Source of the DNA: Bacillota bacterium | GTDB lineage: Bacteria > Bacillota_G > Limnochordia > DTU010 | DNA: 8,151 nt | Direction: 5' to 3' | Assembly: GCA_012799255.1 (NCBI GenBank) | Contig: JAAZLQ010000192.1 | Coordinates: 1-8,151 of the forward strand | Shown: piece by piece, positions 2,559 through 8,151 of the stretch | Position numbering within the stretch: position 1 is the first letter of the stretch | Layout: each line of letters opens with the position of its first letter | Notes under the pieces: model-generated | What the model was told of the DNA's origin: nothing | What the model saw: only the letters and a program-made list of their open reading frames with translations | Databases searched by the model: none | Translations under genes and position numbers: made by a program

Positions 2559-2589
2559 GGACCCCGACAATGTCGGGGTCCTTCTTACT
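2559..2589 (+). terminator. Strong terminator hairpin between the DUF3787-like gene and PFOR
   Basis: A perfect 10-bp GC-rich stem (GGACCCCGAC at 2559-2568, GTCGGGGTCC at 2572-2581) with an AAT loop is followed by TTCTTACTT. It starts 25 nt after the small gene's stop codon. The T-rich tail fits plus-strand use. On the minus strand it begins 7 nt past the PFOR stop codon, but the following bases are not T-rich, so there it may act mainly as a 3'-end-stabilising hairpin. Confidence 0.85.
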
Positions 2590-5500
2590 TATGGAGTAAA
2601 ACTCGCTAAGCGCTGGTATTCTTGCAGACGTTCTGTGGCATCCATTTCCGCTTTGTTGAAGAGCTCCTCAGCCACATCGGGGAACGCCCTTTCCAGTGCT
2701 GAATAACGCACCTCACTCATGAGGAAGTCCTTAAACGAAGCGCTTGGTTCCTTAGAGTCAAGAATAAATGGATTCTTCCCCTCAGCCTTGAGCAAGGGAT
2801 TGTAACGATACAGGTGCCAATAACCAGCTTCCACCGCCCTTTTTTCCTGCATAATACTGGTTCCCATTCCAGTCCGAATTCCATGGTTGATACAGGGCGA
2901 ATAAGCAATAATCAGAGACGGACCAGGATAACTTTCCGCTTCCAAAATCGTGCGGATGGTATGGTTCATGTTAGCTCCCATGGCAATCTGAGCCACATAA
3001 ACATAACCATACGTCATGGCCATGCGTCCTAAGTCCTTTTTACGAATCCTCTTGCCAGATGCTGCGAACTTCGCCACTGCCGCGGTAGGTGTTGCCTTTG
3101 ATGATTGCCCACCTGTATTAGAATACACCTCTGTATCCAAGACTAGCATGTTAACATCCTCACCCAAGGACAATACATGGTCAACTCCGCCATAACCAAT
3201 GTCGTAAGCCCAGCCATCTCCGCCAATAATCCACTGGGATTTTTTCGTCAAATGCTCCTTATTGTGCAGAATCTCATTGATCAGAGGATTCTCCCCCGTT
3301 TCCTGTTCCAAGATGCTAACCAGTTCCCGGGCAGCCTGAGCTGAGGCTAAGGAATCATTGTATGCTTTTAACCATTCTTCACAGGCACGCTTAGCCTTAC
3401 CAGACAGAGTCTTATGACTAAGAAGTTCACTAACTAGATTACGCAGTCTCCCCTGGATCTGCTTCACTCCTAAACGCATGCCAAAGCCGAACTCTGCATT
3501 ATCCTCAAATAGGGAGTTCGCCCAGGCAGGTCCCTGCCCAGCTCGGTTTACTGTATAGGGAAATGACGGCGCACTGGCGGAGTAAATGGACGAACAGCCA
3601 GTTGCATTGGCAATGATCATGCGTTCGCCAAATAACTGTGTTAAAAGGCGTATATAAGGGGTTTCTCCACAACCGGGGCAGGCACCATGAAACTCAAAGA
3701 GGGGTTGCCTAAACTGGCTATTCTTTAGTGTCCGCCAGTCCACGAGATGTTCCTTACTTGTCACTTCTTGAGCATAGATCCAGTTTTCCCTTTGCGTAGA
3801 AATCTCTTGATCGGCCGGTTTCATAATTAACGCCTTTTCAGGGGCCGGACATACATCTGCACAATTTCCGCAACCTGTGCAATCCAAAGGACTCACCTGA
3901 ATGCGATAACCCAGCCCTTCGAGCCCCTTACCAATTGCCTTCTTAGTTCGAAACAGTTCAGGAGCCTGCGCGATTTCCTGTTGATCAAGCAGGAAGGGTC
4001 TAATAACCGCGTGGGGACAAACAAAGGAACACTGATTACACTGAATACAGTTATCAATTTGCCATTGTGGAATCATTACCGCGATGCCGCGTTTTTCATA
4101 AGCAGTAGTACCATTAGGATAAGCCCCGTCTTCAAAGTTCACAAAGGAGCTTACTGGTAAGTCGTCGCCCTCCATACGTTGCATGGGAACTTGGATATCC
4201 TCTACAAAAGGTGGTGCCCCCTCTAGATCCGCATCATCAGCCACATCATCCTTTAGATCAGCCCACTCAGGCGGTACCTCTATTTTCTTCAAAGCGGTTG
4301 CCCCCTGGTCAATGGCTGCCACATTCATGGCCACAATGTCCTTGCCTTTCTTTCCGTACAGACTGTCCACCGATTCCTTCAGATAGCCCAACGCTTCATC
4401 AACAGGGATCACTTTAGCTAGGGTAAAAAAGGCAGCTTGCATTACCATATTGATCCGATTGCCAAGCCCTAGCTTACTGGCAATCGAGATGGCGTCGATG
4501 GTGTAAAACTTCACGTTCTTCTGCGCTAAAGTTCGCTTGGTCTCTACGGGAAGATTTTCTGCCAACTCGTCCCCTTCCCATGGACAGTTCAAAACAAAAA
4601 TGCCTCCTTGCTTAATACCCTTAAGCAAGTCATAGTTGTTGACGAAGGATTTGTTGTGACAAGCAATATAATCAGGATTATCCACCAGGTAAGGGGCTCT
4701 GATCGGTTCCTTGCCAAAACGCAGATGGGATACTGTGGTTCCGCCGGACTTTTTGCTGTCATAGAAAAAATATGCTTGGGCATAGAGATCTGTGTGTTCG
4801 CCGATAATTCGAATCGCTTCCTGATTCGCCCCCACTGTCCCATCAGAGCCTAGACCCCAAAACTTACAACCAATGGTACCTTCGGGAGTGATGTCGATGT
4901 GATCTCCTTCAGGAAGTGAGCTCTGACTGACATCATCAATGATACCAATGGTGAACCGATCCCTAGGCTTGCTTTGGTTAAGATTGTCAAAAACCGCCAC
5001 AATCTGCGCGGGTGTTGTATCCTTCGAACCTAAGCCATAGCGACCTCCCACGATTACAGGACGAACGTCTAAGGATTGGCAAGCCTTAACCACATCAAGA
5101 TACAAAGGTTCGCCTGCAGAACCAGGTTCTTTAGTCCGATCCAATACTGCAATCTTCTGTACAGTTGGCGGTAAAGCTTGTAGAAGATGTTGCTCTGAGA
5201 AAGGTCGATAGAGACGAACTTTCACCAAACCTACTTTTCGACCTTTTTTTCTTAAATAATCGATTGTTCCCTCAATTGTTTCGCAAACAGAGGCCATGGC
5301 CACGATCACGTGCTCTGCCTCAGGATCACCATAATAATCAAAGAGGTTGTACCGACGCCCTGTTAGTTGTCCCAAACGGTTCATGTAGTCTTGTACAATT
5401 TCTGGAACCGCTTCATAGAAGGGGTTGGCCACTTCTCGCCCCTGAAAATAGATGTCAGGATTCTGTGCTGTACCCTTGGTGACAGGCCGATCAGGGTTTA

Positions 5501-6119
5501 AACCACGCTTTCGAAATTCTGCCAAAGCCTCATGATCCAAGAGTTGAGCCATCTGACTATATTCTAATGGCTCGATTTTCTGGTACTCATGGGAAGTGCG
5601 GAACCCATCAAAAAAGTGGATAAAGGGAATCCTACTGGTTAACGTAGCAAGGTGGGCCACGCAAGCTAAGTCCATTACCTCTTGCACATTTGCCGATGAC
5701 AACATGGCAACACCTGTCTGTCGACATGCCATTACGTCCTGATGATCCCCAAATATGGAGAGCGCGTGAGTTGCAATGGCCCTAGCACTAACATGAAAAA
5801 CGCATGGTAACAACTCGCCAGCTATTTTGTACAGGTTGGGTATCATCAACAATAGACCTTGGGATGCTGTAAAGGTGGTGGTGAGGGCGCCAACACTTAA
5901 CGATCCATGGACAGCGCCTGCAGCACCGAGCTCAGACTGCATTTCTACTACCTCGACCACTTCATTAAAGAGGTTTTTGCGACCATGGGCACTCCAGAGA
6001 TCTACCAATTCTGCCATGGGCGTAGAAGGTGTGATCGGATAAATGGCACTGACTTCAGTAAAAGCATACGCAACGTGGGCTGCCGCCTCGTTGCCATCAA
6101 TGGTAATGAACTTTTTCAT
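2589..6119 (-). CDS. nifJ: Pyruvate:ferredoxin (flavodoxin) oxidoreductase, single-chain PFOR
   Basis: Cytoplasmic, oxygen-sensitive enzyme: pyruvate + CoA + 2 oxidised ferredoxin gives acetyl-CoA + CO2 + 2 reduced ferredoxin. At 1176 residues it is complete. Domains in order: pyrimidine-TPP domain from residue 1 (YPITPSTPM 27-35; E63 and R113 match the substrate/TPP residues Glu64 and Arg114 of the Desulfovibrio africanus enzyme); the gamma-type domain (FWGLGSDGTVGANQ 420-433); a linker and EKR domain; a two-cluster ferredoxin domain (C691, C694, C697, C701; C747, C750, C753, C757); the pyrophosphate-TPP domain with CPGCG (C814, C817), C842 and C1076 for the proximal cluster, and Mg/TPP residues D968, T996, V998. 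It lacks the roughly 55-residue C-terminal extension that shields the D. africanus enzyme. I chose the ATG at 6119, with GGAGG 7 nt upstream, over the longer frame to 6236. It is a single-gene unit, divergent from the thioredoxin-grd operon. Confidence 0.98.
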   Translation of the reverse strand: MKKFITIDGNEAAAHVAYAFTEVSAIYPITPSTPMAELVDLWSAHGRKNLFNEVVEVVEMQSELGAAGAVHGSLSVGALTTTFTASQGLLLMIPNLYKIAGELLPCVFHVSARAIATHALSIFGDHQDVMACRQTGVAMLSSANVQEVMDLACVAHLATLTSRIPFIHFFDGFRTSHEYQKIEPLEYSQMAQLLDHEALAEFRKRGLNPDRPVTKGTAQNPDIYFQGREVANPFYEAVPEIVQDYMNRLGQLTGRRYNLFDYYGDPEAEHVIVAMASVCETIEGTIDYLRKKGRKVGLVKVRLYRPFSEQHLLQALPPTVQKIAVLDRTKEPGSAGEPLYLDVVKACQSLDVRPVIVGGRYGLGSKDTTPAQIVAVFDNLNQSKPRDRFTIGIIDDVSQSSLPEGDHIDITPEGTIGCKFWGLGSDGTVGANQEAIRIIGEHTDLYAQAYFFYDSKKSGGTTVSHLRFGKEPIRAPYLVDNPDYIACHNKSFVNNYDLLKGIKQGGIFVLNCPWEGDELAENLPVETKRTLAQKNVKFYTIDAISIASKLGLGNRINMVMQAAFFTLAKVIPVDEALGYLKESVDSLYGKKGKDIVAMNVAAIDQGATALKKIEVPPEWADLKDDVADDADLEGAPPFVEDIQVPMQRMEGDDLPVSSFVNFEDGAYPNGTTAYEKRGIAVMIPQWQIDNCIQCNQCSFVCPHAVIRPFLLDQQEIAQAPELFRTKKAIGKGLEGLGYRIQVSPLDCTGCGNCADVCPAPEKALIMKPADQEISTQRENWIYAQEVTSKEHLVDWRTLKNSQFRQPLFEFHGACPGCGETPYIRLLTQLFGERMIIANATGCSSIYSASAPSFPYTVNRAGQGPAWANSLFEDNAEFGFGMRLGVKQIQGRLRNLVSELLSHKTLSGKAKRACEEWLKAYNDSLASAQAARELVSILEQETGENPLINEILHNKEHLTKKSQWIIGGDGWAYDIGYGGVDHVLSLGEDVNMLVLDTEVYSNTGGQSSKATPTAAVAKFAASGKRIRKKDLGRMAMTYGYVYVAQIAMGANMNHTIRTILEAESYPGPSLIIAYSPCINHGIRTGMGTSIMQEKRAVEAGYWHLYRYNPLLKAEGKNPFILDSKEPSASFKDFLMSEVRYSALERAFPDVAEELFNKAEMDATERLQEYQRLASFTP

Positions 6120-6131: not shown

Positions 6132-6252
6132 ATTTTTCGTTCTCAACCCTATTATTTGCCAATTGCACGTTCTCATACAGAAAGCAATTTCGGATTTCTC
6201 TGTCTCTTCAACTCCGCATCCCTGCGCGTATTTCAACCAGAAAAACGATTTT

Positions 6253-6373: not shown

Positions 6374-6691
6374 ATGATCGCCCTAGACAAAGACTCTTGG
6401 GAAGAGCATATCCCAGGTTCCACAGGTTGGGTTGTGGTTGACTTTTGGGGTCCTCGTTGCAAACCATGCTTAGAACTCATGCCAGAGGTGGAACGCCTCG
6501 CCGAAAAATATGGCGATAAGATGAAATTCTACTCCTTGGACACATCCAAAGCGATGCGCCTGGCCATGGCACAAGGTGTCATGAGTCTGCCAGTTATTGC
6601 TTTTTATCATGATGGCGAAAAGAAAGCCGAGCTTAGCGGTGACTTTGGCGCTAAGGATGTTGAAGAAAAAATCCTTGAATTATTAGGCTAA
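6374..6691 (+). CDS. trxA: Thioredoxin of the glycine reductase operon (active site RCKPC)
   Basis: A 105-residue single-domain cytoplasmic thioredoxin of normal length, with no signal peptide. The strand before the active site (WVVVDFWGP, 19-27) leads to R28-C29-K30-P31-C32, and the cis-proline is P73 in SLPV. The CxxC spacing and position are canonical, but the usual WCGPC is replaced by RCKPC: the Trp is Arg and the Gly is Lys. Thioredoxins encoded with glycine reductase in amino-acid-fermenting anaerobes are known to depart from WCGPC (GCVPC in Eubacterium acidaminophilum). Its likely role is to return electrons to the Grd system, reducing the oxidised selenoprotein A. It is the first gene of the operon, 22 nt upstream of grdE. 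Thioredoxin reductase, often encoded next to it in grd loci, is absent here. The family is certain; the role is inferred from context. Confidence 0.93.
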   Translation: MIALDKDSWEEHIPGSTGWVVVDFWGPRCKPCLELMPEVERLAEKYGDKMKFYSLDTSKAMRLAMAQGVMSLPVIAFYHDGEKKAELSGDFGAKDVEEKILELLG

Positions 6692-6713
6692 GCTTGCCAA
6701 AGGAGGTGAGTGT

Positions 6714-8000
6714 GTGCAGCTTAAAGTTGGTAATATCTTCATCAACGATTTACAGTTCGGACCGAAAACCGAGGTCAAAGACCACACCCTATTTGTTGAC
6801 AAGGAAGAACTAACCGAACTGTTGTTGCAGGACGAACATTTGGCACAGGTCACCATTGAAATCGCCCATCCCGGTGATTCCATCCGGATCATGCCTGTAA
6901 AGGACGTTATCGAACCCCGAGTGAAACCTGAGCAGGAAGGTGGAATCTTCCCAGGGATGGTCAGTAAAATGTTCACTGCCGGTTCTGGTGTTACCCATGT
7001 ACTCAAAGGAGTCAGCGTAGTGACAACTGGTAAGATCGTAGGTTACCAAGAGGGCATCATAGATATGCAAGGTCCTGGTGCCGATCTTACTCCCTTTTCC
7101 AAGCTCCACAATCTAGTCATTGTGGCGAAGCCTGTTGCTGGTGTGACTCCCTATCAACACGAGGCAGCCTTGAGAAAAATGGGGCTTAGGGCAGCAAACT
7201 ATTTAGGAGAGGCGGCTCGCTCCCTCACTCCAGACGAAACGCTAAGCTATGAGCTTTTACCCGTAGCAAAATATCATGAGAAGTATCCCGATCTGCCCAA
7301 GATCGCTTATGTGTATATGTTACAGAGCCAAGGTTTGCTCCACGACACCTATTACTACGGTGTTGATGCGAAAAACATGGTACCTACGTTCATGCATCCC
7401 ACAGAAGTAATGGATGGTGCTATCGTCAGTGGTAACTGTGTCTCAGCCTGTGACAAAAACACTACCTATCATCATTTGAATAACCCTGTCATTCACGATC
7501 TTTTGCGGCGTCACGGTAAGGATCTGTGCTTTGTGGGTTGTGTGATTACGAATGAGAATGTGACGCTCCTGGACAAACAACGGTCCAGCGATCTCACTGC
7601 CAAATTAGTGGAATATTTAGGTGTGGACGGCGTGATTATCAGTGAAGAGGGCTTTGGCAATCCTGATACTGATTTGATCATGAACTGTACAAAAATCGAA
7701 GGCAAAGGCATTAGAACTGTGCTCATTACCGATGAGTATGCCGGACAAGATGGCACAAGTCAGTCGTTAGCTGATGGAAGCCCCTTAGCTGACGCCATAG
7801 TAACAGGCGGAAACGCCAACGAGTTGGTTACTTTGCCACCTATGGACAAGATAATCGGCAATATAGATCCTGTAGAAGTGATTGCTGGAGGTTTTAAAGG
7901 AAACCGAAGTGCTGACGGTTCCATTACGGTTGAACTACAAGCCATAATTGGAGCAACAAACGAACTCGGATTCAATAAACTAACGACTCGCGAACATTAG
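6714..8000 (+). CDS. grdE: Glycine reductase component B alpha/beta proprotein GrdE
   Basis: A 428-residue proprotein of the substrate-binding component B of glycine/sarcosine/betaine reductase. In the family the chain cuts itself between Asn and Cys, turning the Cys into a pyruvoyl group that forms a Schiff base with the amino acid; the selenoprotein partner GrdB then cleaves the C-N bond, passing a carboxymethyl group to GrdA. The cleavage site is visible as [13 protein letters not shown], with N241-C242, the same Cys number I recall for E. acidaminophilum GrdE. Cutting here would give an N-terminal piece of 241 residues and a pyruvoyl piece of 187. The N-terminus [16 protein letters not shown] is typical. 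The start is GTG, with AGGAGG 7 nt upstream. It lies between thioredoxin and grdA, as in glycine reductase operons. The sarcosine (GrdG) and betaine (GrdI) paralogues are similar, so substrate rests on context until grdB is seen. Confidence 0.95.
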
Positions 8001-8010
8001 AAAAGGAGGA
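8001..8010 (+). promoter_or_regulatory. grdA ribosome binding site
   Basis: AAAAGGAGGA follows the grdE stop codon directly; GGAGG (8005-8009) ends 8 nt before the grdA ATG. This near-perfect site in a 17-nt gap shows that the short frame after it is a real, well-translated gene although it meets a TGA after 43 codons. Confidence 0.9.
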
Positions 8011-8017
8011 ATCGGTC

Positions 8018-8151
8018 ATGATCGATCTAAAAGGCAAACACATTGCCATCATCGGAGATCGTGATGGCATCCCTGGTCCAGCCATTGAAGAGTGCCTAAA
8101 GAACTCTGGCGGAACAGTAGTTTTTTCCACCACCGAATGCTTTGTTTGAAC
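8018..8151 (+). CDS. grdA: Glycine/sarcosine/betaine reductase selenoprotein A (GrdA), N-terminal part with Sec codon
   Basis: The start of selenoprotein A, the small carrier that takes the carboxymethyl group from component B onto selenium and passes it to component C (GrdC/GrdD), giving acetyl phosphate. 44 codons are visible. They include [16 protein letters not shown] (13-28), a family hallmark, and end STTECFV followed by TGA (8147-8149). In GrdA that position is selenocysteine, in the redox motif CFVU (C41, U44), followed by Thr; the two remaining bases, AC, fit a Thr codon. The TGA is therefore read as Sec, and the gene runs on beyond the window to an expected total of about 150-160 residues. 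Bacterial SECIS hairpins lie directly after the UGA, so this one is outside the window. A naive reading gives a 43-residue ORF and misses the gene. The host must have SelA, SelB, SelC and SelD elsewhere. Confidence 0.95.

Follow-up and report, generated by a model that had tools for sequence, protein, structure and literature searches.

An open reading frame resembling the N-terminus of GrdA, the carrier selenoprotein of glycine reductase, runs into an in-frame TGA two bases before the end of the 8,151-nucleotide stretch of DNA analysed here (the window). Does this TGA terminate the gene or encode selenocysteine (Sec), and what kind of system does the gene belong to? We are very nearly certain that the window ends within grdA, the carrier selenoprotein gene of a glycine reductase operon, and that its UGA is decoded as Sec. 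The host would be an uncultured anaerobic member of Bacillota, with a predicted operon trxA-grdE-grdA that is continued in relatives by grdB and a fused grdC-grdD.

The genes of the window and their counterparts in relatives

The grdA frame opens with an ATG at 8018 (Table 1), behind the strong ribosome site that the sequence-only reading had placed after grdE, and TGA is its codon 44. That reading had given the TGA as 8149; the codon is correct, and 8149 is its last base. The CxxU motif is present as CFV-TGA at 8138-8149, and the bases AC at 8150-8151 are the last two of the window. The 44 residues match Pfam GRDA (1.4e-17, profile positions 1-41) and NCBIfam reduct_selen_A (6.1e-18), matches so strong that chance is excluded and the proposed GrdA N-terminus is upheld; the whole-protein cut-off of the NCBIfam selenoprotein A model, 130 bits, is out of reach for 44 residues (65 bits).

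Table 1. Coordinates of the features discussed, in the window unless a related locus is named.
Feature	Position	Strand	Evidence or remark
Pyruvate:ferredoxin oxidoreductase (PFOR) gene, divergent	2589..6119	-	TIGR02176 1953 bits, cut-off 911
trxA, thioredoxin, CKPC motif	6374..6691	+	Pfam Thioredoxin 1.7e-17; NCBIfam ThioredTrxAClost 122 bits, under cut-off 140
grdE-type gene, component B subunit	6714..8000	+	Pfam Gly_reductase 2e-203; stop TAG 7998-8000
grdA ribosome binding site AAGGAGG	8003..8009	+	Sequence; 8 nt upstream of ATG
grdA, 5' part	8018..8151	+	43 codons, predicted Sec codon TGA 8147-8149, then AC
In-frame UGA, predicted selenocysteine, residue 44 (CFVU)	8147..8149	+	Relatives; C. 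sticklandii GrdA (PMC3091704, Table 2)
Fused GrdC-GrdD	L003:13135-15660; L008:13134-15662; L016:5956-8481		One frame each

The thioredoxin encoded by trxA is the likely electron donor. The divergent PFOR gene is a possible metabolic partner of the grd genes; its start was checked as the ATG at 6119, the listed open reading frame beginning earlier, at a TTG at 6236. Past it lie an M42 peptidase gene and, at the far edge of the window, a partial gene for a GH65 enzyme. As operon partners of grdA, grdE and trxA are thus found in the window, and grdB and grdCD in relatives only. A search of a plasmid collection returned two distant matches, of 65% and 69% identity. Among solved structures, GrdA and GrdE had no sequence relative at E 0.001, and fused GrdCD matched one PlsX chain weakly.

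Related loci were collected by scanning genome contigs with GrdE, and 79 distinct loci were kept from 155 confirmed relatives. Eighteen of these, with GrdE identities of 78-90%, are referred to as near loci; their DNA is 69-80% identical to the window over the parts present, the match in L016 being restricted to 6374-8151. The gene order of relatives places grdB directly behind grdA. A TIGR01918 search detected grdB over cut-off in 15/17 relative genomes, and each of the 16 full-length hits, from 14 genomes, contains exactly one TGA. The Rfam family SECIS_4 begins at the base after the grdB UGA in six of the seven relative loci scanned; in the seventh, L001, the sequence ends ahead of this UGA. 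The second UGA-containing gene anticipated by the sequence-only reading is therefore seen in relatives, SECIS_4 included. Two genomes carry a second, more distant GrdB-type gene, also with one TGA (G007, C39:19350-20648, 465 bits; G016, C26:1163-2461, 467 bits), which perhaps serves a second substrate.

Behind grdB, a single frame of about 841 residues holds both component C subunits, beta (GrdC) and alpha (GrdD), which score 758-781 and 482-503 bits, respectively, in three loci. Among the near loci, 10 allowed a judgement, and all 10 have this fusion. Across the 79 loci, 18 of the 49 judged are fused and 31 separate (30 unjudged), and the fused loci are spread over several groups, Terrisporobacter included; the fusion at first looked new, but is common. 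The database matches listed also include GrdCD proteins of fused length from Symbiobacterium, Treponema and Peptococcaceae, among others, and 2 of the 120 GrdCD relatives listed have 'Limnochordia' in their name.

Scores of component B models bear on substrate. A genuine grdA might belong to an operon for sarcosine or betaine reductase, as the best NCBIfam model for the window's GrdE is the sarcosine protein GrdG (633 bits). However, this score lies under the model's cut-off of 780, and the GrdB of L008, the one GrdB scored for substrate, passes the glycine-reductase equivalog (654 bits, cut-off 602) while missing both sarcosine GrdF (652 bits, cut-off 800) and betaine GrdH (550 bits, cut-off 775). 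The glycine and GrdF scores are 2 bits apart, so the substrate call for this GrdB is not a wide one. We judge a sarcosine or betaine operon to be improbable, and retain glycine reductase as the preferred assignment.

The TGA at codon 44 and its decoding

Two of the 18 near loci give no reading of the Sec site (L004 has Ns there and L010 stops short). In all of the other 16, the grdA frame runs past the TGA as TAAGAMD(M/L)ENQ, the in-frame continuation that had been proposed as a check on the window. Over all 79 loci, 64 are readable (15 are without a readable grdA site) and provide 65 sites; TGA followed by Thr is found at 65/65, and Cys at none. The AC of the window fits this Thr, and would be the first two bases of its codon if the window is the same as its relatives. 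In Clostridium sticklandii, GrdA carries Sec at residue 44 of 158 (PMC3091704, Table 2). The TGA of the window thus coincides with the GrdA Sec position, as had been claimed. The absence of Cys at 65 sites agrees with the passage of PMC1794560 that describes GrdA as being without a known Cys homologue. The first member of the GrdA kind was characterised in the 1970s (references in PMC3091704); the grdA of the window is a further case of this long-known kind of selenoprotein, and of low surprise. Elsewhere, in Terrisporobacter mayombei (L028), grdA occurs twice on one 21 kb stretch (12707-13156 and 18165-18614), and both copies share this Sec motif.

A true stop, in a grdA truncated or decayed in this organism, would be compatible with the two window bases that lie beyond the TGA and with the behaviour of standard gene callers, which end there. 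Yet all 43 codons ahead of the TGA are intact and GrdA-like, a ribosome site is present, the TGA falls exactly at a Sec position conserved at 65/65 sites, and AC fits the Thr found in all of them. A true stop is therefore very improbable, and the comparison confirms 8018-8149 as a genuine grdA start with a predicted Sec codon at residue 44.

Gene callers do stop at this codon. A search with the 43 residues returned 448 proteins, and the best 120 of these all end exactly at CFV (120/120); 82 are 43 residues long and the whole range is 41-64. The search was limited to proteins of similar length, so it indicates that truncated grdA calls are common, and gives no share of full annotations. Fragments like the 43-residue one expected of standard callers do occur in the database, and grdA here is a clean example of annotation cutting a gene at its Sec codon. 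A separate observation concerns assembly: as in the window, which ends at 8151, the contig ends or a run of Ns occurs in or just behind grdA in 8 of the 18 near loci (L002, L004, L010, L011, L012, L014, L015 and L018). Exact runs of at least 31 bases common to genome pairs were found in grdA for 12/35 pairs, in grdE for 2/35 and in grdB for 16/35, and such runs could confuse an assembler. Duplication of grdA is not supported as the cause of the breaks, with one grdA in 16/17 genomes when split pieces are counted as one. G010 has a full grdA and, directly before grdB on another contig, a short C-terminal piece, which fits a contig break.

Machinery for Sec insertion was counted in 17 relative genomes by curated cut-offs, alongside 14 control genomes. 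Over cut-off, selA was detected in 15/17, selB in 14/17 and selD in 16/17; at a loose limit (E 0.001) selB and selD match 14/14 controls too, and the cut-off counts alone were therefore used. At the Rfam score, tRNA-Sec was found in 16/17 relatives and 5/14 controls, and many of the weaker hits resemble other tRNAs, so only strong hits were counted. These (64-73 bits) are present in 14/17 genomes, each adjoining selB on the same contig, and in 5/5 loci tested ARAGORN assigns tRNA-SeC with a TCA anticodon. Three of the 17 relatives are without selB over cut-off and strong tRNA-Sec, two without selA and one without selD, for which gaps in these metagenome-assembled genomes (MAGs) are the likely reason. 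The search for selA, selB, selC and selD suggested from the window alone thus finds each of the four in most of the 17 relatives. The selD frame contains a TGA of its own in 15 of the 16 genomes where selD is over cut-off, located within GGGUTAK in the three loci read (L099, L100 and L101); we take this motif to be the SelD active site. The SelD of relatives is therefore itself a candidate selenoprotein, in which case the use of selenium would influence how much of it is supplied.

Reassignment of TGA organism-wide to another amino acid, e.g. Trp, is scarcely credible: the complete stops in the window, five in number, are four TAA and one TAG and include no TGA, but five are too few for a verdict, C. 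sticklandii has Sec at this site (PMC3091704), relatives possess tRNA-Sec, selA, selB and selD, and the long genes of L003, L008 and L016 were located by treating TGA as a stop.

On the preferred reading, UGA at codon 44 would be translated as Sec by SelB with Sec-tRNA. Component B (GrdE/GrdB) would then transfer the two-carbon unit to the selenium of the GrdA CxxU pair, GrdA would hand it to component C with release of acetyl phosphate, and thioredoxin would re-reduce GrdA. The chemistry linking GrdA, component B, component C and thioredoxin is established biochemistry. The sequence-only reading had gone further, crediting the organism with selenoprotein synthesis and a complete Grd-type carrier; this part is carried over from relatives with only 69-80% DNA identity, as the window stops two bases past the TGA. 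We infer that the host has the rest of grdA, the operon and the Sec machinery as they do.

A candidate SECIS behind grdA

A SECIS hairpin just 3' of the grdA UGA had also been predicted, and was sought in relatives. No Rfam SECIS was found at grdA in seven relative loci at the gathering threshold, and loose scans of two loci gave chance families only, with no SECIS. Near relatives do feature a candidate hairpin with 9 pairs, one bulge and an 8-nt loop beginning with G, at 37 nt; the bSECIS rules given in PMC13188914 place the loop 16-37 nt after the UGA. This hairpin, or a shifted version of it, meets the energy rule in 10/15 near loci, and any hairpin behind the grdA UGA does so in 14/64 loci. 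The corresponding counts for grdB sites are 11/11 near and 40/72 overall. At 13 control offsets within grdA, the rule was met in anything from 0/15 to 13/13 near loci, two offsets (9/15 and 13/13) approaching or exceeding the grdA site; because control offsets pass too, the energy rule is not specific.

The candidate hairpin has 92.6% of its cells paired over the 15 near sequences. Two pairs show one compensatory change each, a level reached in 10/500 shuffles, and further pair types were matched in 53/500. Sliding the partner lowers pairing to 11-45%, although this control favours a structure derived from these same sequences. RNAalifold found no shared hairpin at grdA among 62 distinct sequences. 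Against codon-preserving shuffles, z of the alifold energy at grdA lay between -0.96 and -1.84 when the 15 near relatives were used and between 0.36 and 0.70 with all 62 sequences; even grdB, with its Rfam SECIS, gives z 0 to 0.80, which shows the control to be insensitive. Energies of single sequences gave a mixed picture (z at grdA -1.06 to 1.31, at grdB -2.43 to 0.72). Of the predicted SECIS there thus stands a candidate, clade-specific hairpin that these data weakly support, outside any Rfam family. Two other loci form a hairpin behind the grdA UGA that differs from the candidate of the near relatives and lies closer to the UGA (L019:11434-11498, -15.1 kcal/mol; L021:6097-6161, -8.4 kcal/mol), as if the SECIS differed between clades.

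Metabolic setting and comparison with known systems

All 17 relative genomes contain glycine decarboxylase and formate-THF ligase (FTHFS) over cut-off, and the CdhC domain of CODH/ACS was found in 0/17 by a search that recovers CdhC in two control methanogens. Digester bacteria of the Limnochordia/DTU010 group (MBA03) have been proposed to oxidise acetate via glycine and Grd (PMC11844248, PMC11932165), and a related glycine/Grd proposal concerns the MAG DTU645 (PMC7024554); the direction of the Grd step is, according to PMC11844248, yet to be clarified. The main texts of PMC11844248 and PMC11932165 contain no word beginning with 'seleno' or 'selenium'. The grd operon matters here in that it has been proposed to connect acetyl phosphate with glycine in digester bacteria that lack CODH/ACS (PMC7024554, PMC11844248, PMC11932165). 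We tentatively raise the possibility, which we hold to be somewhat doubtful, that Stickland metabolism is not the chief role of the glycine reductase in this lineage. The enzyme would instead be the point where two-carbon units enter or leave a pathway for acetate or CO2 that runs through glycine and replaces the absent CODH/ACS, and the divergent PFOR would connect it to pyruvate. If so, acetate turnover in the lineage would depend on selenium and on correct UGA decoding in grdA and grdB, and, should the glycine route be real, selenium supply would be a testable control point.

Compared with the C. sticklandii system (PMC3091704), Sec occupies residue 44 of GrdA in both, the same family models apply, and grdB follows in the window's relatives. 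GrdA of the near relatives has about 153 residues, versus 158 in C. sticklandii, its C-terminal part lying beyond the window, and the near relatives differ further in that GrdC and GrdD are fused. In their metabolic complement, the window's relatives resemble the DTU010/MBA03 bacteria as described in PMC11844248 and PMC11932165, combining the lack of CODH/ACS with grd, glycine decarboxylase and FTHFS.
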